Shown: one piece after another, positions 276 to 10,977 of the stretch
Layout: each line of letters starts with the position of its first letter
Position numbering within the stretch: position 1 is the stretch's first letter
Origin: Promethearchaeota archaeon
GTDB lineage: Archaea; Asgardarchaeota; Lokiarchaeia; Sigyniarchaeales; SOKP01
DNA: 64,000 nt
NCBI GenBank assembly: GCA_008080735.1
Contig: SHMW01000010.1
Location: 1 to 64,000, forward strand
Direction: 5' to 3'
The notes under the pieces: model-generated
The model's database searches: none
What the model was told of the DNA's origin: nothing
Seen by the model: the letters and a program-made list of their open reading frames with translations, nothing else
Program-made: the position numbers and the translations under genes

Positions 276-1175
276 TTGGAAACTAATTCAACAAATGAAC
301 AAAAAGAAAGTGGGGAAAAAGAAATAATTAAAGAAGAGCAACCCATCAAATTTCATTGGTATTTGCTTGGTTTTGTCACAACTTATTTTGTATCATGGTT
401 AATCCCCGGAATTGCATTTTTCACTTATGTGATGCTATTTTTTTTACCTTATTTCCTTGAAACTTCCAATTTTATCCTAATCTTTACTGAATTAAAGCCA
501 TTACTTTCACTATTATTATTTCCCTTAGTTTTAATAGCCTGTGTATTGCTACATCTATTTTTTGCAGCGGCGGTCGTAAAATTTTGGTATGGATTTACTC
601 AGAGAATTTTGCCTTCAAAAGAAGGCGTTATACCCAGAAACGTTCCAAGTAAAACTTCAAGTTTATACCATATCCGCTCTTTTTTACTCAAATATCCAAA
701 GAATGCGGTAATGAAAGGAATGTTTCCTTGGGTATTTACATGGATTTTTAATTTTATAGGTTCGACAGAATATGGAAAAGGAACGACCGTCGAGGAGGAA
801 GTTTGCGGAGATAGGTTTGCAATAACAGGTGAAAATTGCTATGTTGGGCCAAATGCATCATTGGCAAGCCATTTAGTAGAGGGTATTTTTGGGAACATTT
901 ATTATTTCAAAGTAAAATTGGGTGATAATTGTACTGTGGGGGCAGAGACCCCATTAGCACCTGGTACAGAATTAGGAGACAATTCATATGTATTTCCCGG
1001 AGCTGCGACCTTAAAATTTACAGAGGGAAAAGGAGGCTATTATTATTTTGGAATGCCCATACGTAAATTGTTTTCTCGTAAATTGAAAAAATATTTGGGA
1101 CTCATTGATGAAGACCTCGAAAGAGCGGAGAAGCTGATGGAAATCCAACAAAAAAATAAGAAAGAGGATGATTAA
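276..1175 (+). CDS. Two-helix membrane protein with hexapeptide (left-handed beta-helix) domain, triad member A, copy 1
   Basis: 299 aa from a TTG start; the nearby ATG at 266 is out of frame and soon stops. Two long hydrophobic stretches (about residues 28-59 and 75-101) are followed by a linker with IPRNVPSK and YHIRSFLLKYP, then imperfect hexapeptide repeats (GDNCTVG, APGTELGDNSYV) typical of left-handed beta-helix acyltransferases. An SH pair (ASH) lies where such folds often carry a catalytic His. It opens a tight three-gene run: the next gene starts 2 bp after its stop. The 4355 gene is its paralogue. The plan recalls one repeat unit of the C-terminal region of poly-lysine-synthetase-type NRPSs (TIGR02353). 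Fold is well supported; substrate unknown. Confidence 0.8.
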   Translation: METNSTNEQKESGEKEIIKEEQPIKFHWYLLGFVTTYFVSWLIPGIAFFTYVMLFFLPYFLETSNFILIFTELKPLLSLLLFPLVLIACVLLHLFFAAAVVKFWYGFTQRILPSKEGVIPRNVPSKTSSLYHIRSFLLKYPKNAVMKGMFPWVFTWIFNFIGSTEYGKGTTVEEEVCGDRFAITGENCYVGPNASLASHLVEGIFGNIYYFKVKLGDNCTVGAETPLAPGTELGDNSYVFPGAATLKFTEGKGGYYYFGMPIRKLFSRKLKKYLGLIDEDLERAEKLMEIQQKNKKEDD

Positions 1176-1177
1176 AT

Positions 1178-2038
1178 TTGGGTAATGAAAATGAAGAGGA
1201 ACCAGAGGATGAATATTTAATAAATTTTGTAACCAGCAGCGCCATATCCCGAGTTAATCTGAAATTCCTAATAGTATATCTGCCGATTATTTGGTTGAGT
1301 GGTATGATAACCTTGACATATTGGTGGATTTATCAGCCAAGATGGCATTTATTTATAGATTTTCTCCTTTTACTACCAGCACATATATTAGCAATGCTAA
1401 CCATTTTTACCTTCGCTTGTGTTATATTTAGCAAACTTTTATTGATATTAGTAAATTTAATCCATAAACCACGAGAAGGGATCTTTCGAGCCGAACTTGG
1501 AGATAATGATTTTGAGTTTTGGTGTTTGAGAATCGAAATTAAAAAATTAGTTTTATGGCTTTTCAATAATTGGCCCTTGCCTTGGGCAGATGTTATAGCA
1601 TTTAAATGGTTTGGGACTAATATAGACCTTTCTAGCCATCTTCATGATGCGTGGTGTGATGCAGAATTTGTGAAATTCGGCAAAAGAGTGATGGTGGGGC
1701 AAGGTGCGGTGGTCATGTCAAGTATGGTTATTGGAAAGTACCTCATAATCAAGGAGGTAGTTTTGGACGACCATACGGTTGTAGGAGGGCAGAGTACAGT
1801 GGCACCTGGAACAATACTTGGAGAAGAATCTGTAGTAGGAGCGGCAGGATCTACTGCGTTTAATCAAATTCTTGAACCTGGTTGGATTTATGCGGGAATC
1901 CCAGCACGAAAACTAAAAACAAACGAACATGCGATTAAAAGGCGAGATATAATCGTTAAAAAGAAAATTGATGAGGAAGAAAAAGAAGAAATCAAACAAG
2001 AAGTAAATATAGATGAGGATAAAAAAGATTTGGTATAA
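1178..2038 (+). CDS. Two-helix membrane hexapeptide-domain protein, triad member B, copy 1
   Basis: 286 aa, TTG start with AGAGGA about 10 bases upstream, 2 bp after gene A. Hydrophobic segments at about 28-52 and 58-93 are followed by HKPREG, an FKWFG motif, DLSSHLHDAW with a possible catalytic His, and hexapeptide repeats (VMVGQGAVVMSSMVIG, VVGGQSTVAPGTILGEESVVG) ending EPGWIYAGIPARKLK, the usual close of a beta-helix acyltransferase domain. The tail is very acidic and lysine-rich. Copy 2 is the gene at 5270. The tight spacing suggests co-expression with A and C and possibly a heteromeric membrane complex. Acyl or aminoacyl transfer is a guess from fold. Confidence 0.8.
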   Translation: MGNENEEEPEDEYLINFVTSSAISRVNLKFLIVYLPIIWLSGMITLTYWWIYQPRWHLFIDFLLLLPAHILAMLTIFTFACVIFSKLLLILVNLIHKPREGIFRAELGDNDFEFWCLRIEIKKLVLWLFNNWPLPWADVIAFKWFGTNIDLSSHLHDAWCDAEFVKFGKRVMVGQGAVVMSSMVIGKYLIIKEVVLDDHTVVGGQSTVAPGTILGEESVVGAAGSTAFNQILEPGWIYAGIPARKLKTNEHAIKRRDIIVKKKIDEEEKEEIKQEVNIDEDKKDLV

Positions 2039-2053
2039 TGAGATGAATAAGAA

Positions 2054-2941
2054 ATGAGTGTTCCCACAAGTATGCGAGTAGGTCCGTTTGCTCCCACGGA
2101 ATTACCAAAAAAACGTTATATTCTGTTCTACGTATTTTTAATATGGATTAGTATAATCCCTATTATGCTCCAATTCTGGTTATATTGGCAATTTTTATGG
2201 GATTATCAAAGACCAATCCATTTTTATATTTATTTGCCGCTTTTTGCTTTTTTCTGTTATGTTGAGTTGGTTCTAATCTCATTAATATTTGCTAGAATAC
2301 TTCTAAGCGTAGTAAATACCATCCATAAGCCTCGAGAAGGAGTGTTTTTAAGGGATAAAAGCGATAAAAACTATCGATATTGGTGTATTCGAAATACAAT
2401 TAAAAGATGGCCTGTTTGGCTTGCGCATAAATTTCCATTTCCATTTTTAGATAACCTTTGTTTTAAAATGTTTGGGGTTAAAACCACCTTTACAAATTCA
2501 CTCTTCGAGGGGTGGGTGGATACGGAATTTATCGAATTTGGAGAAAATGTGGTTGTTGGGCAAAGTTCCCACATCCAATCCTCGGTCATTATGGGGAATT
2601 TGCTAATTGTACGGAAAACCGTAATAGAAGATGATGTAAGAATTGGAACTCATGCTGTCGTCATGCCAGGAACTCATATAGGGAAGAGAGCCTCACTAAG
2701 CACATGGTCCCTTACCACTGTCGGGCAAGAGCTTGAGTCGGGGTGGATCTATCATGGTGTTCCTGCCAGAAAATTTAAGAAAAACCGGTTTTTTGAGGAT
2801 GGTTTGGAAGATAAAATCCAGTTTAAAGCTGAGACACAAGAAAGGCTTGAGGAAATCTATAAAAAATATTATAGAAAGCATCAAGCTGAGCATGTCTCAT
2901 ACGTAGAGAGATTAAAACCCGCACCAGAAAAGGAGGATTAA
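2054..2941 (+). CDS. Two-helix membrane hexapeptide-domain protein, triad member C, copy 1
   Basis: 295 aa, ATG start 15 bp after gene B. Helices at about 22-48 and 57-88, then HKPREGVFLRDK, FKMFGVK, and beta-helix repeats (VVVGQSSHIQSSVIMG, IGTHAVVMPGTHIG) ending in SGWIYHGVPARKFKK. Where A and B have an SH pair, C reads FTNSLFEGW, so the presumed catalytic His is missing and C may be structural or use another residue. The tail is charged. It is the last gene of triad 1; the paralogue is at 6195-7052. Confidence 0.8.
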   Translation: MSVPTSMRVGPFAPTELPKKRYILFYVFLIWISIIPIMLQFWLYWQFLWDYQRPIHFYIYLPLFAFFCYVELVLISLIFARILLSVVNTIHKPREGVFLRDKSDKNYRYWCIRNTIKRWPVWLAHKFPFPFLDNLCFKMFGVKTTFTNSLFEGWVDTEFIEFGENVVVGQSSHIQSSVIMGNLLIVRKTVIEDDVRIGTHAVVMPGTHIGKRASLSTWSLTTVGQELESGWIYHGVPARKFKKNRFFEDGLEDKIQFKAETQERLEEIYKKYYRKHQAEHVSYVERLKPAPEKED

Positions 2942-3083
2942 ATTCTCGAATTATATATTCTAAATTTTCCTCATTTCATAATCATACTAAATTATTCGTT
3001 TTTTGCATTAAATTTATGCATTTTAGGATTAATTTGGACTAATTATAAAAACTGCTGTTGATATTTATTCTTCAAGAACAATA

Positions 3084-3557
3084 ATGACAAAATGTTTTTA
3101 TTGTAAAAACCAAATTGAAACAATTCCATTTCGATGTAAATATTGCGGGATGGTGTTTTGTCGTAAACACAGATTACCAGAAAATCATAATTGTACTTTC
3201 TTTTTTCAATTTGACGAGTCTGACAAAATTCGATATCAAGACACCTTGGATTATATGAGGAAAAATCTGAGTGTGGCAGATATATACCATTATTTCACAA
3301 CAAAAGAATATACTGAAGCCCAAACTCTTGAATTACTCCAACATTTTATTGAACAAAATGATGACCCTGAAATTAGAATATATAGCTTAGAAGCACTGAA
3401 ATTACTTGATTTGGATAGAGATAAAGTTTTTACGATTCTAGAAGCGTCTGTGCTCTCTGATGCGGATTCTAATGTACGAGAAATCGGAATAAAGATTCTT
3501 AAAGAGATATTTCCAAAAAAGAGCAAAAATATCTTGAAATGGATTGAGGATAGATAA
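3084..3557 (+). CDS. AN1-type zinc finger protein with helical-repeat C-terminus
   Basis: 157 aa. Residues 4-37 form a full AN1 finger: C4-x2-C7, C18-x2-C21, C26-x2-H29, H35-x-C37, which binds two zinc ions. Residues 55-157 are short amphipathic helices resembling HEAT-like repeats (DPEIRIYSLEALKLL, DSNVREIGIKILKEIF). AN1 fingers in eukaryotes occur in ubiquitin- and stress-linked proteins; archaeal ones are known and frequent in Asgard genomes. It sits alone between the two hexapeptide triads with 142 bp upstream and 284 bp downstream, so it need not share their function. No ubiquitin-system gene is in the window. Confidence 0.85.
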   Translation: MTKCFYCKNQIETIPFRCKYCGMVFCRKHRLPENHNCTFFFQFDESDKIRYQDTLDYMRKNLSVADIYHYFTTKEYTEAQTLELLQHFIEQNDDPEIRIYSLEALKLLDLDRDKVFTILEASVLSDADSNVREIGIKILKEIFPKKSKNILKWIEDR

Positions 3558-3841
3558 TATTATTCGGCTATATTCCCATTCATCGTTCTTTAGGTATTTA
3601 TTACTCGTATAAATAAAATTATCTTATTATTTAACATTCATCAGTATATCTAATTATTCCTCACCGATAATAAGATTTTGATACACTATATAAATCTATT
3701 TCGAAATTTAAGAAAGTAGACATTACACATCAAGTAATTAATTTTAAATATTCACTGAAAAACCCCTCTACTCTAAATATTTTGAACTTTTAATGAAATA
3801 TAATCTCAAGTTTTTTTAAGAAAATCCTAATAACTATTCCT

Positions 3842-4213
3842 ATGACACTCAATAGAAAAGATGCTCCCAAAAGTTTTATTCCTATTTTCATAATATGGAT
3901 ATTTCTCTGTAATGTGGCAGCAATAATTCTTGCTGTGGTATGGTGGTTACAATTTCCCGAGACTTTTCTGTTTGACGCGACCATTTCCATGGTTATAATT
4001 ATTGGTATAAATGTGCTAAGTATTATTCTTTTATATCCTATGTTCGGAATGGATCCTATAAGACCATTTTTAAAGGGAGCACTTATATGGTATGTGGTCA
4101 TTTCAATAATTTATATTATATTGTGGGCGTGGATCTTTTTGATTCCGGGGACAATCCAGTTGATGGGGGACCTTTGGTTTCATTGGAAGAGGAAAAAATT
4201 AATTGGCGAATAA
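3842..4213 (+). CDS. Small three-helix membrane protein, function unknown
   Basis: 123 aa with three hydrophobic segments (about 12-37, 45-68, 79-105) and a short basic tail WHWKRKKL-like (residues 112-120). I recognise no family. It lies between the two triads in the same orientation, 140 bp before copy 2, and could be an accessory part of that locus. The antisense frame over the same bases (3790-4101) is a less convincing hydrophobic shadow. Confidence 0.6.
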   Translation: MTLNRKDAPKSFIPIFIIWIFLCNVAAIILAVVWWLQFPETFLFDATISMVIIIGINVLSIILLYPMFGMDPIRPFLKGALIWYVVISIIYIILWAWIFLIPGTIQLMGDLWFHWKRKKLIGE

Positions 4214-4354
4214 AAATCTAATGATTTGCTTTTTTTATTTTAAATTTTATTTTATCTCCTTTTAAATAGAAATAAACCTTATATATGGCTTTTACATTAG
4301 AAAATTAATAGTAAATGCAATAATATACGCCATTCGTAAAATAGATCATCAATT

Positions 4355-5260
4355 ATGTCGAATGAATCTACTGAATCGAATTCTGTTGCAGATGGTAGAA
4401 AGGGGAGAAAAGAGCTTGAAGTGGAGAAGACAGAGATAAATCTTCAATTTCATTTTTATTTCTTAGGATTTGGAACTGCCTATTTACTTTCTTGGCTCAT
4501 TCCAGCAATAATTTTATGGATTTATGCATTTTTAGTCTATTTACCGTTCTTCTTAAACGCAAGCTCTCTTATTATCCTTTTCACAGATATTAGAGCGTTA
4601 TTAGCATCAATTTTCATGCCTTTAATCGTAATAGTCTGTTATTTAATCCATTTATTTATTGTAGCTGCTGTAACTCGATTTTGGTGGAACATAACCGAAA
4701 AAATACGACCATCAAAAAATGGAATTATACCCCGCAATATTCCCAGTAAAACTCTCAATTTGTATCATATTCGTAGTTTTTTAATAAAATATCCAAAACA
4801 CGCGTTTAATAGGGGACCATTTCCTTGGTTACTTCCTTGGCTTTATAACTTTGTGGGTGCGAACAAAGTTGGGAAGGGGACAACTATTGAGGAGCAATTC
4901 GGAGCGGACAAATTTGTTGAAATTGGGAATAATTCATATATTGGGGTAAATTCTGGATTTAGTTCTCATGCAGTTGATGGGACTTTCGGAAATGTAGCTT
5001 ATTTTAAAATTAAAGTTGGAGATAATGTGACAACATCTTGTTTGAATTGTATCGCACCAGGCGTTGAGATCAATGATAATTCATATCTCCTCCCAATGGC
5101 TGGGGCGACAAAACATAGTGTTTTAAAAGGAGATAATTATTATTTCGGAGTTCCCTTGCGACGTGCCTTCTCACGAAAAGTAAGAGAATATCTAAATGTA
5201 TCAAAAGAAGACTTGGAACGGGCGGAGCAATTAAATGAAGCTGAAAATATGAAGGATTAG
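4355..5260 (+). CDS. Two-helix membrane hexapeptide-domain protein, triad member A, copy 2
   Basis: 301 aa, ATG start. Close paralogue of the 276 gene: shared LGFGTAYLLSWLIPA-type first helix, GIIPRNIPSK, YHIRSFLIKYP, FPWLLPWLYNFVG, KGTTIEEQ and the final FGVPLRRAFSRKVREYL. It keeps the SH pair (FSSHAVDG). The next gene begins within 10 bp. The two copies are clearly diverged in sequence, so the duplication is not recent and both are probably kept for function. Confidence 0.8.
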   Translation: MSNESTESNSVADGRKGRKELEVEKTEINLQFHFYFLGFGTAYLLSWLIPAIILWIYAFLVYLPFFLNASSLIILFTDIRALLASIFMPLIVIVCYLIHLFIVAAVTRFWWNITEKIRPSKNGIIPRNIPSKTLNLYHIRSFLIKYPKHAFNRGPFPWLLPWLYNFVGANKVGKGTTIEEQFGADKFVEIGNNSYIGVNSGFSSHAVDGTFGNVAYFKIKVGDNVTTSCLNCIAPGVEINDNSYLLPMAGATKHSVLKGDNYYFGVPLRRAFSRKVREYLNVSKEDLERAEQLNEAENMKD

Positions 5261-5269
5261 GTGGTCAAG

Positions 5270-6166
5270 ATGACAGAAAGTGAGACAAAGCAAAAAGATA
5301 TAAAATCAGATCAACTGGTTGTACCAAAAGGACATGAAATCTCCGAGTTAGAAATTGATTTTATAACTACGGGAGCAATGAAATCAATCAATTATACACC
5401 TTTGATATTATATATTCCAGTTATCTGGATAAGCAGCTTTCTAGTAATAATTTTTTGGGTATATTTTTTTATTTTAAATGAATTGGTCATATTGCAAGTT
5501 GTATTATTTCCTCCTATGGTTTTTGGGTCTTATATGGTTTTCATTTTAGGAGTGGCCATATCAGCAAAATTACTTATGATAATCATTGAAATGATCCATC
5601 TCCCAAGAGAGGGTATATTTATAGCTCAAAAAGGAAATAAAGAGTATGATTTCTGGTGTCTTCGCGTCCAATTGAAAAAGTTTGTTTTATGGGTGATGGA
5701 TAATTGTCCAGTCCCATGGATAGATATCTGGGGGTTTAAATGGTTCGGTCTAAAAGTAGATTTCTCCAGTCATATGTTTGATGCGTGGGTCGATACGGAA
5801 TTTATTGAGTTCGGACACAAAATTACGGTGGGACAGGGAGCAACGCTAATGAGTTCGATGGTTGTTGGGAAATATCTTATAATCAAAAAAATTATCTTTG
5901 AGGATTATGCGGTTATAGGAGGTGTTTCTAATATAGCTCCAGGTACAAAAATAGGCGAGGAGACCATAATCGGAGCATTTAGTACTACGAATTACAATCA
6001 AGAACTTGAACCAGGATGGGTCTATTTTGGAATACCCGCTTCAAAATTAAAAGAAAATAAATATTCGGAAATAAGGACTGGCATGGTCTATAAAAAAGAT
6101 GTTGATGAAGAATCCAAATATTTGGTAAAGGAGGATATCAACATCGATGAGGATGGTAATAAATAG
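5270..6166 (+). CDS. Two-helix membrane hexapeptide-domain protein, triad member B, copy 2
   Basis: 298 aa from ATG 5270, which has GGTGG five bases upstream; a GTG at 5261 would add three residues and abuts the stop of gene A. Paralogue of 1178-2038 with the same order: acidic N-terminus, two helices, PREGIF, FKWFG, DFSSHMFDAWVDTEFIEFG, hexapeptide repeats, and LEPGWVYFGIPASKLK. The SH pair is kept. The tail KEDINIDEDGNK matches the other copy's VNIDEDKKD, showing the tail is under constraint. Confidence 0.8.
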   Translation: MTESETKQKDIKSDQLVVPKGHEISELEIDFITTGAMKSINYTPLILYIPVIWISSFLVIIFWVYFFILNELVILQVVLFPPMVFGSYMVFILGVAISAKLLMIIIEMIHLPREGIFIAQKGNKEYDFWCLRVQLKKFVLWVMDNCPVPWIDIWGFKWFGLKVDFSSHMFDAWVDTEFIEFGHKITVGQGATLMSSMVVGKYLIIKKIIFEDYAVIGGVSNIAPGTKIGEETIIGAFSTTNYNQELEPGWVYFGIPASKLKENKYSEIRTGMVYKKDVDEESKYLVKEDINIDEDGNK

Positions 6167-6194
6167 GAAATACTAAAAGTTGAAAAAGGATAAA

Positions 6195-7052
6195 ATGTCA
6201 AAACCTGCATCGTTAAAAGTTGGACCATTTACAACAAATGTTCTCGTTAAGAAGAGATACTTGCTGTTTTATTTATTTCTTTTTTGGGTTGCTCTTTTTA
6301 CTATTCAATTTGAATTTTGGATTTATTACCATTATTTGAGTACGGAAATAATTTTATTTTACGTATTGCTGCCATTTTTGCTTATTTTTTTGTATATTTC
6401 GAGTGTATTTGTATCGCTTCTATTTGCGAAATTTTTGCTTTTTTGTGTTAACTTGATTCATAAACCACGCGAAGGAGTTTTTCTAAGAGATAAAAATGAT
6501 ATTGATTATCGCTATTGGAGCATACGCAATACGATAAAAAAATGGCCCGTATGGCTTTCCCATAAATTCCCCTTCCCGTTTTTGGATAATCTTTGTTTCA
6601 AAATGTTCGGGGTAAAAACAAGATTTAAAAATTCACTCTTTGAGGGGTGGGTGGATACGGAATTTATCGAATTCGGGGAAAATGTCACTGTGGGAGAGGG
6701 AAGTATAATTCAATCCGCATTAATCGCCGGTAATTTATTTATCATTCGAAAAACAGAAATAGGTAATAATGTAGAGATTGGGAGCCATGCGATACTTATG
6801 CCAGGAACCAAAATAGGAGATAATTGTATTGTCGCTGCAAGTTCCACTACTACCGTTGGTCAAGAATTAGAATCGGGTTGGATATATTTAGGTGTTCCAG
6901 CGACCAAATTTAAGAAAAATAGGTTTTTTGATGACAATCTAGAAGACTTGATTGGTGACTCGGAAGATATCGAAAATTTACGAGAAAAATATGATTTGGT
7001 ATACGTAAAAAGGAAAGATAAAGAAAAAATTCAAAAAAACTCTCCTGAGTAA
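6195..7052 (+). CDS. Two-helix membrane hexapeptide-domain protein, triad member C, copy 2
   Basis: 285 aa. I choose ATG 6195 rather than TTG 6180 because AAAGGA sits 5 bases upstream of it and the protein then begins MSKPASLKVGPF, matching MSVPTSMRVGPF of copy 1. Two N-terminal helices, HKPREGVFLRDK, FKMFGVK, FKNSLFEGWVDTEFIEFGENVTVG, then hexapeptide repeats and SGWIYLGVPATKFKKNRFF. As in copy 1 the presumed catalytic His is replaced (KNSLFEG). It ends the second triad. Confidence 0.8.
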   Translation: MSKPASLKVGPFTTNVLVKKRYLLFYLFLFWVALFTIQFEFWIYYHYLSTEIILFYVLLPFLLIFLYISSVFVSLLFAKFLLFCVNLIHKPREGVFLRDKNDIDYRYWSIRNTIKKWPVWLSHKFPFPFLDNLCFKMFGVKTRFKNSLFEGWVDTEFIEFGENVTVGEGSIIQSALIAGNLFIIRKTEIGNNVEIGSHAILMPGTKIGDNCIVAASSTTTVGQELESGWIYLGVPATKFKKNRFFDDNLEDLIGDSEDIENLREKYDLVYVKRKDKEKIQKNSPE

Positions 7053-7499: not shown

Positions 7500-7599
7500 A
7501 TGATTTTTTATTAGTATCAAATTTAAATATAAAGCTGATAACACTTATTTAATACAACCTAATGATATATAAATTATTTACATTTTGAGGGAGAAAAAA

Positions 7600-8418
7600 A
7601 TGTCTGATGTTTTAATATCTATATTACAGATACTTGGTTGGACTGGTCTATTCTTTTTAGGATATTTATTACTGGCATTTGTTGTAGGAACTGCCAAAAA
7701 AGACAATTCATTGATAGATCGCTTTTATCCTGGTGGATTTATGCTAATTGCATGGTCAACCTTGATCTTAAAAGGAACTTTCGATTTTAGACAAATCATA
7801 ATAACAATCTTAGTCACGATCTGGGGAATCAGGCTCGGCACATATGTCACTATTAGAAATTGGGGAAAAGGTGAGGATAAACGATATCAAAATATGCGAG
7901 AACGTTGGGGAGATAAAGTTCTTATAAATAGTCTTCTTCGCATCTATCTCTTTCAAGGATTAATTATTTTTTTAGTTGTCTCTCCTGTGTCATATATTAA
8001 TGTTGTTGATAATCCAGCAATTTGGTGGTTAGATTTTATTGGAATTGGTGTCTGGGTAATTGGGTTTTATTTTGAAACGGTAGGAGATTACCAATTATAT
8101 GTATTCTTAAATAATCCAGAAAATCAGGGAAAGGTTTTTGATGAAGGATTATGGCGTTATACTCAACATCCAAACTATTTCGGGGAAGTCACTCAATGGT
8201 GGGGAATCTTTTTAGTCGCAACAAGCGTTGCACTCAAAGTATATTTTCCCTATGGATTTATTACGATTATAGGACCAATCATTATCACCTATATGATTAT
8301 TAACGTTTCTGGTGTCAGATTATTGAACAAACAATTTGAAGGAGATAGTGAATACGCAAGATATAAGCGACGAACCAGCCAATTTATCCCACTACCGCCC
8401 AAAAAAGATAAGGATTAA
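7600..8418 (+). CDS. DUF1295 family integral membrane protein (steroid 5-alpha-reductase/ICMT-like fold)
   Basis: 272 aa from ATG 7600, which has GAGGGAG six bases upstream; an upstream in-frame TTG at 7585 overlaps that site. About six or seven hydrophobic segments. The conserved region LWRYTQHPNYFGEVTQWWGIFL is the DUF1295 hallmark shared with isoprenylcysteine methyltransferases and steroid reductases, where it binds the cofactor. The end YKRRTSQFIPLPPKK also fits the family. The likely role is reduction or methylation of a lipid or isoprenoid; the exact substrate cannot be told. Monocistronic. Confidence 0.85.
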   Translation: MSDVLISILQILGWTGLFFLGYLLLAFVVGTAKKDNSLIDRFYPGGFMLIAWSTLILKGTFDFRQIIITILVTIWGIRLGTYVTIRNWGKGEDKRYQNMRERWGDKVLINSLLRIYLFQGLIIFLVVSPVSYINVVDNPAIWWLDFIGIGVWVIGFYFETVGDYQLYVFLNNPENQGKVFDEGLWRYTQHPNYFGEVTQWWGIFLVATSVALKVYFPYGFITIIGPIIITYMIINVSGVRLLNKQFEGDSEYARYKRRTSQFIPLPPKKDKD

Positions 8419-10443: not shown

Positions 10444-10977
10444 TTAAATTGGTATCCCATACATGCCAGTTAATGAATCTTCAAAGAGAGGAATTTGTGG
10501 CGGAAAATATGTGAATACTACAAAAAGAACACCGATAATTATAATTCCGAAGACGGAAATATATGAAATTTTGAGATTAAATTCAGATTTCATCATAATT
10601 TTATAACTTACAAATTGACCAACACTTACAGCGAATATGAAACTGAAAATATCAAGCCAAAGTATATGCTCACCAATAATTGCAGTATAGGTATAAAAAA
10701 AGACCGGAATTATAAAAAGAATCAACAATGCTGAAACTAAATTTGCCAGAAAAAAGTTTTGTGATTCTTTATTGACATTTCTATACTCAAGAATCCCAAA
10801 AAAAACTAATGGCCAATAGCCTAATTTCAAGTGTTCCCAGATACTTTCATTCACAGCACTGATGGCCCCAATGGGAGGAAAATTTCCAGAGAGTTCAAAA
10901 AGAAAATGCAAAAATGAGCCAAACATGATAATGAATACAGACCCACCAATCTGCCAATTCAGAATTTTATTTCTCAT
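10444..10977 (-). CDS. Five- or six-helix membrane protein resembling DUF6512
   Basis: 177 aa, nearly all hydrophobic. The phrase NESIWEHLKLGYWP at about residues 44-57 is what I associate with the DUF6512 family of small membrane proteins of unknown function; the polar N-E-x-x-W-E-H set inside a membrane context suggests a functional site. 101 bp upstream of the acyl-CoA ligase start, same strand. Family assignment is from memory of the motif and moderately sure. Confidence 0.65.
   Translation of the reverse strand: MRNKILNWQIGGSVFIIMFGSFLHFLFELSGNFPPIGAISAVNESIWEHLKLGYWPLVFFGILEYRNVNKESQNFFLANLVSALLILFIIPVFFYTYTAIIGEHILWLDIFSFIFAVSVGQFVSYKIMMKSEFNLKISYISVFGIIIIGVLFVVFTYFPPQIPLFEDSLTGMYGIPI

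Follow-up and report, generated by a model that had tools for sequence, protein, structure and literature searches.

Conserved three-gene sets of membrane-anchored left-handed beta-helix proteins in Lokiarchaeia, candidate heterotrimeric acyltransferases with one active site

The analyzed DNA (the window, a 64-kb stretch at the start of one contig of a 4.1-Mb Asgard draft genome) contains two sets of three plus-strand genes, A, B and C, at positions 276-2941 and 4355-7052, which encode membrane proteins with a left-handed beta-helix (LbH) domain (Table 1). In the reading that we favor and consider reasonably probable, each set forms a membrane-anchored, CoA-dependent acyltransferase heterotrimer with a single active site. 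All six ORFs were found where the initial annotation had located them, and the gene order that it had noted in both copies is also held across genomes. With the same order recurring at 48 further loci, chance is no plausible explanation of the arrangement. The level of identity between copy 1 and copy 2 is 50% for A, 47% for B and 62% for C. Within copy 1, B1 and C1 are 36% identical, and A1 shares only 26% with either of them. Two further proteins are encoded between the sets, a small membrane protein and one with an AN1 zinc finger. The latter (3084-3557) has a HEAT-like C-terminal part, and no set-adjacent relative of it was found elsewhere.

Table 1. Coordinates of the features in the window
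Feature	Position	Strand	Description
A1	276..1175	+	two transmembrane (TM) helices (aa 26-61, 73-111), linker, LbH; catalytic-type His199
Codon of A1 His199	870..872	+	aligned with catalytic His115 of E. coli LacA (galactoside acetyltransferase)
B1	1178..2038	+	two TM helices and LbH; Ser182 at the catalytic-His position
C1	2054..2941	+	two TM helices and LbH; Ser177 at the catalytic-His position
A2	4355..5260	+	second A copy; catalytic-type His205, codon 4967-4969
B2	5261..6166	+	second B copy; Ser199 at the His position
C2	6180..7052	+	second C copy; Ala180 at the His position
DUF1295 membrane protein (PF06966)	7585..8418	+	possible associate; syntenic in the genus, near the set in 4/48 loci

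All six proteins begin with two strongly hydrophobic helices followed by hexapeptide repeats, and Pfam Hexapep was matched in each of them, in some slightly under the cut-off. The AlphaFold2 model of A1 (pLDDT 87) places the two TM helices before a short strand (117-119), two linker helices (126-146 and 151-161) and an LbH domain broken up by extra strands. Hydrophobicity, repeats and model thus bear out the two helices and beta-helix that had been proposed for all six. Comparison of the A1 model with the PDB revealed sugar O-acetyltransferases (Z about 14), among them the CoA-bound LbH O-acetyltransferase 1kqa (Z 13.7 over 150 residues), and a PDB search with the alignment of all six proteins returned generic LbH enzymes only. 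The single-chain model of an A-B fusion is weak (pLDDT 69, pTM 0.52) and contains no subunit packing; it was dropped as packing evidence.

The A-B-C order is kept in 48 loci, 47 lokiarchaeal and one from ‘Hodarchaeum’, among which some of the contigs break off within a set, and C is missing from some arrays. Retention of the triad in other Asgard genomes, proposed earlier as a check, is therefore nearly confined to lokiarchaeal loci. C-like proteins were found in 110 of the 227 Asgard genomes and in 64 of the 65 genomes of this family. A and B are fused in 27 ORFs from 18 of the 48 loci, and many genomes have a second paralogous set in which a C-A fusion is followed by B (L026, L027, L065, L067, L092). 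Both kinds of fusion make concrete the earlier idea that the three proteins are parts of one membrane LbH unit, and together with the strict gene order they argue for a 1:1:1 stoichiometry. Incomplete versions also occur, as A-B or B-C pairs lacking the third gene and as A-B arrays that have no C. A literature search, limited to papers outside subscription, found no article that deals with these Asgard proteins, names TIGR02353 or describes an LbH heterotrimeric acyltransferase.

The ‘Hodarchaeum’ locus belongs to the ‘Candidatus Hodarchaeum mangrovi’ bin (L071/L134; JAEOUE010000157.1, 7951 bp) and consists of a Loki-like A-B-C set with an extra A; its C is 58% identical to that of the window. 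No strong matches were found in the other genomes of this genus in the dataset, which suggests that the set was acquired horizontally or that this short contig was misbinned.

The three classes differ in a histidine which in the A1 profile alignment falls on LacA H115, the catalytic residue of this enzyme. Read from this one alignment column in draft genomes, the histidine is present in all 95 A units, in none of the 87 B units, which have Ser, Gly or Ala there without exception, and in one of the 68 C-class units, that of the early-branching f6 locus L077. The same distribution was obtained for the 48 separately fetched loci (A 70/70, B 0/63, C 0/40). B1 also has a histidine, H154, which is present in 62 of the 87 B proteins, at a position different from the catalytic column. 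The beta-helix with hexapeptide repeats that characterizes LbH acyl-CoA acyltransferases is present, and the histidine at the LacA H115 position is found in A only. The initial annotation had pointed out that C lacks its histidine in both copies, which is the case; however, B lacks it too at the catalytic position, and the two active sites and one structural site proposed on that basis give way to a predicted single site, in A alone.

In the LbH acetyltransferase fold, active sites are formed at the subunit interfaces, and of these only the one with the histidine of A would be expected to work. In the heterotrimer that we favor, the three homologous subunits would together contribute six anchoring helices, two each, to a membrane base that carries the LbH trimer, the three beta-helices packing next to one another as they do in LbH acetyltransferases. 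A would provide the sole active site, with His199 as the general base and the acyl-CoA lying in a cleft shared with the neighboring subunit. B and C, as paralogues that have lost the histidine, may determine the form of the complex, of its membrane platform or of the acceptor site, and the two silent interfaces could keep the shape or bind a membrane acceptor. LacA and maltose acetyltransferase share with A the fold (Z about 14), the position of the catalytic histidine and the likely CoA donor, whereas they are soluble homotrimers with three active sites, lacking the membrane helices and the two His-less partners. A precedent of known structure is the gamma-carbonic anhydrase of plant mitochondrial complex I (PMC7567890), an LbH heterotrimer that, like the proposed A-B-C trimer, combines active with inactive paralogues and has a single conserved active site; however, it is a zinc enzyme or a relic of one on complex I, and its membrane anchoring is unrelated. 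The incomplete sets, a C-A + B subfamily with Gln in place of the histidine and the weakness of the A-B fusion model count against the heterotrimer.

This subfamily comprises one C-A fusion and B paralogue, in which Gln replaces the catalytic histidine of A (L027:7518-9888, L170, L171, L173), with the histidine retained in L172. Perhaps it is a set devoid of acyltransferase activity.

Separate homotrimers, with A as an ordinary membrane acetyltransferase and the His-less B and C as regulatory or scaffold proteins, appear unlikely. The homotrimer is the typical state of LbH acetyltransferases, and the single-gene Asgard homologues all have the histidine, but the conserved gene order and the A-B and C-A fusions speak against separate assembly, as does the loss of the histidine throughout B and C with its conservation in A. 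A slightly lower probability can be given to a non-enzymatic membrane scaffold, in which the LbH trimer would bind a metabolite or a partner and the histidine would be structural. Non-catalytic LbH subunits are known, as in gamma-carbonic anhydrase-like proteins and eIF2B, and the Gln-bearing subfamily would fit such a role; the invariance of the A histidine, its alignment with the catalytic base and the conservation of E173 in at least 95% of A proteins argue otherwise.

The initial annotation had regarded A, B and C as a possible split version of the C-terminal module of the poly-lysine synthetases (Pls/PosA, TIGR02353). An NCBIfam search indeed gave TIGR02353 as the top match of B and C, with E-values of 6.9e-15 for C1 over residues 27-243 (the strongest of the six) and 3.4e-9 for B1. 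However, the best score is 54.4 bits over profile positions 8-215, far below the curated cut-off of 423.1 bits, and the top matches of A are galactoside and heptaprenylglyceryl-phosphate acetyltransferases. No protein above the TIGR02353 cut-off was found among the 227 Asgard genomes. The architectural part of the proposal stands: A, B and C together reproduce the plan of the Pls terminal module, three units each composed of a TM pair, two linker helices and an LbH domain, with the histidine in one of the three. The layout of the A1 model also agrees with that described for the PosA C-terminal model, in which each TM pair is separated from its beta-helix by two helices and a strand (PMC10522769). 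The difference is that the Pls repeats belong to a single chain, follow adenylation and carrier domains, both of which are absent from all A, B and C ORFs, and pass the 423-bit cut-off.

For a closer comparison, 12 Pls/PosA proteins from plasmid records were cut into repeats and analyzed by profile-profile alignment. The C profile matched Pls repeat 1 with an E-value of 1.8e-19 across 203 columns, mostly of the LbH domain, which alone gave 1.5e-18. Direct homology of the TM and linker part of C with repeat 1 was set aside as marginal (6e-4; the lowest E-value among 20 column-shuffled controls was 0.016). Over the same part, the single-gene Asgard homologues match Pls repeats 1 and 2 at 1e-9 to 1e-10 (repeat 2, 1.6e-10), C at 7e-8 and A at 2e-6; by way of these intermediates, the whole unit of TM pair, linker and LbH domain can be assigned to one family with Pls at the sequence level.

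Two phylogenetic trees placed the Pls repeats in one group and the lokiarchaeal A, B and C in a clade apart from it (100/100). Forcing A to join Pls repeat 3 made the tree worse by 44 log units (AU p = 0.0008), and a shared triplication in which A would correspond to repeat 3 was rejected. Given the separate clades and this test, the triplications of Pls and A-B-C seem to have happened independently, and the phylogeny indicates that the arrangement with the histidine in one of three parts evolved separately in each. In the 12 Pls sequences, all of them plasmid-borne, the catalytic column has His in repeat 3 of 12/12 and in 0/24 of repeats 1 and 2; this helps to locate the catalytic domain of Pls/PosA, the epsilon-poly-lysine and delta-poly-ornithine synthetases, which is probably repeat 3 of the three tandem membrane domains, a point not made in the searched text of the PosA paper (PMC10522769).

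The carrier domain PF00550 was not detected in this genome and was not above the cut-off in 10 of the 12 triad genomes; in the other two, it passes the cut-off as isolated small ORFs. The phosphopantetheinyl transferase PF01648 (PPTase) was not found in any of the nine family genomes examined, including this one. Since neither was detected in this genome, CoA would be the more likely donor. A carrier-free, trans-acting polymerizing or lipid-linked acyltransferase, which would have converged with poly-lysine synthetase on the one-of-three design and would make a new amide- or ester-linked surface product specific to these archaea, is a doubtful proposition. Still less credible is a truly split Pls, in which a separate enzyme would carry out the adenylation and the three proteins would supply, in trans, the condensation module of a synthetase for an amino-acid homopolymer. 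The TIGR02353 matches, the shared plan and the identical one-in-three histidine pattern favor it, and in this genus an acyl-CoA ligase gene is close by; the separate clades, the rejection of A with repeat 3, the carrier and PPTase results and the lack of a full TIGR02353 protein in the 227 genomes oppose it. The nearby ligase, moreover, is of the fatty-acyl-CoA type by its profile, lies on the opposite strand and accompanies the set mainly within this genus. Accordingly, the suggested amino acid polymer substrate found no support. Tandem amplification of ordinary, redundant hexapeptide acetyltransferases that do not work together would explain the Hexapep and galactoside/maltose acetyltransferase matches, but is highly improbable in view of the order, the fusions and the class-specific histidine pattern maintained in many genera.

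The histidine is kept by all single-gene Asgard homologues and by most other Asgard homologues, which suggests that it is the ancestral state and that it was lost in partner subunits more than once. Order-level relatives (f3) have A and one His-less partner, which branches with B and C; the B+C clade of f1 is separated from these partners with moderate support (77/89). The composition of the f3 genomes points to probable growth by duplication from a single gene through a pair to the triad. The lokiarchaeal family seems to have grown stepwise from a His-bearing single gene to an active/inactive pair and then to the A-B-C triad, often duplicated or fused. Lokiarchaea are one of the prokaryotic groups most closely related to eukaryotes, and the family offers, in a lineage close to them, a clear natural series of the steps by which a homo-oligomeric enzyme may turn into an obligate heteromer.

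B-C pairs elsewhere in the same and related genomes have the histidine in one member only (L028, L095-L098). In these loci (L028:7889-9510, L095, L096, L097 and L098, from related genomes), the two-gene relative, one member with His and one with Tyr/Phe, is located beside a conserved metallophosphoesterase.

The acceptor of the proposed heterotrimer is probably membrane-associated: a lipid head group, or a polyprenol-linked or surface sugar. All six proteins weakly match the heptaprenylglyceryl phosphate O-acetyltransferase profile (NF058585), whose enzyme acts on an archaeal-type lipid precursor, a conceivable class of acceptor; however, they score 21-32 bits where the cut-off is 300, this enzyme is soluble, and there is no specific link. 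Gene neighbors were considered as a substrate clue and set aside, as no partner is common to all 48 loci and no dedicated partner indicating the substrate was found in them. The most frequent neighbor is a CxxCxxCC protein (PF03692; 24/48, always on the opposite strand), followed by an MDR dehydrogenase (15), an NrdD-like gene (13) and a nitrilase (PF00795; 12). The nitrilase is encoded directly 3' of C in several loci, and the NrdD-like gene, so labeled from sequence only, is upstream and divergent in its 13 loci. Synteny with the DUF1295 and fatty-acyl-CoA ligase genes is mainly confined to the genus. A DUF6512 membrane protein (PF20122) is encoded at 10444-10977 of the window, and it occurs near the set in five other loci too.
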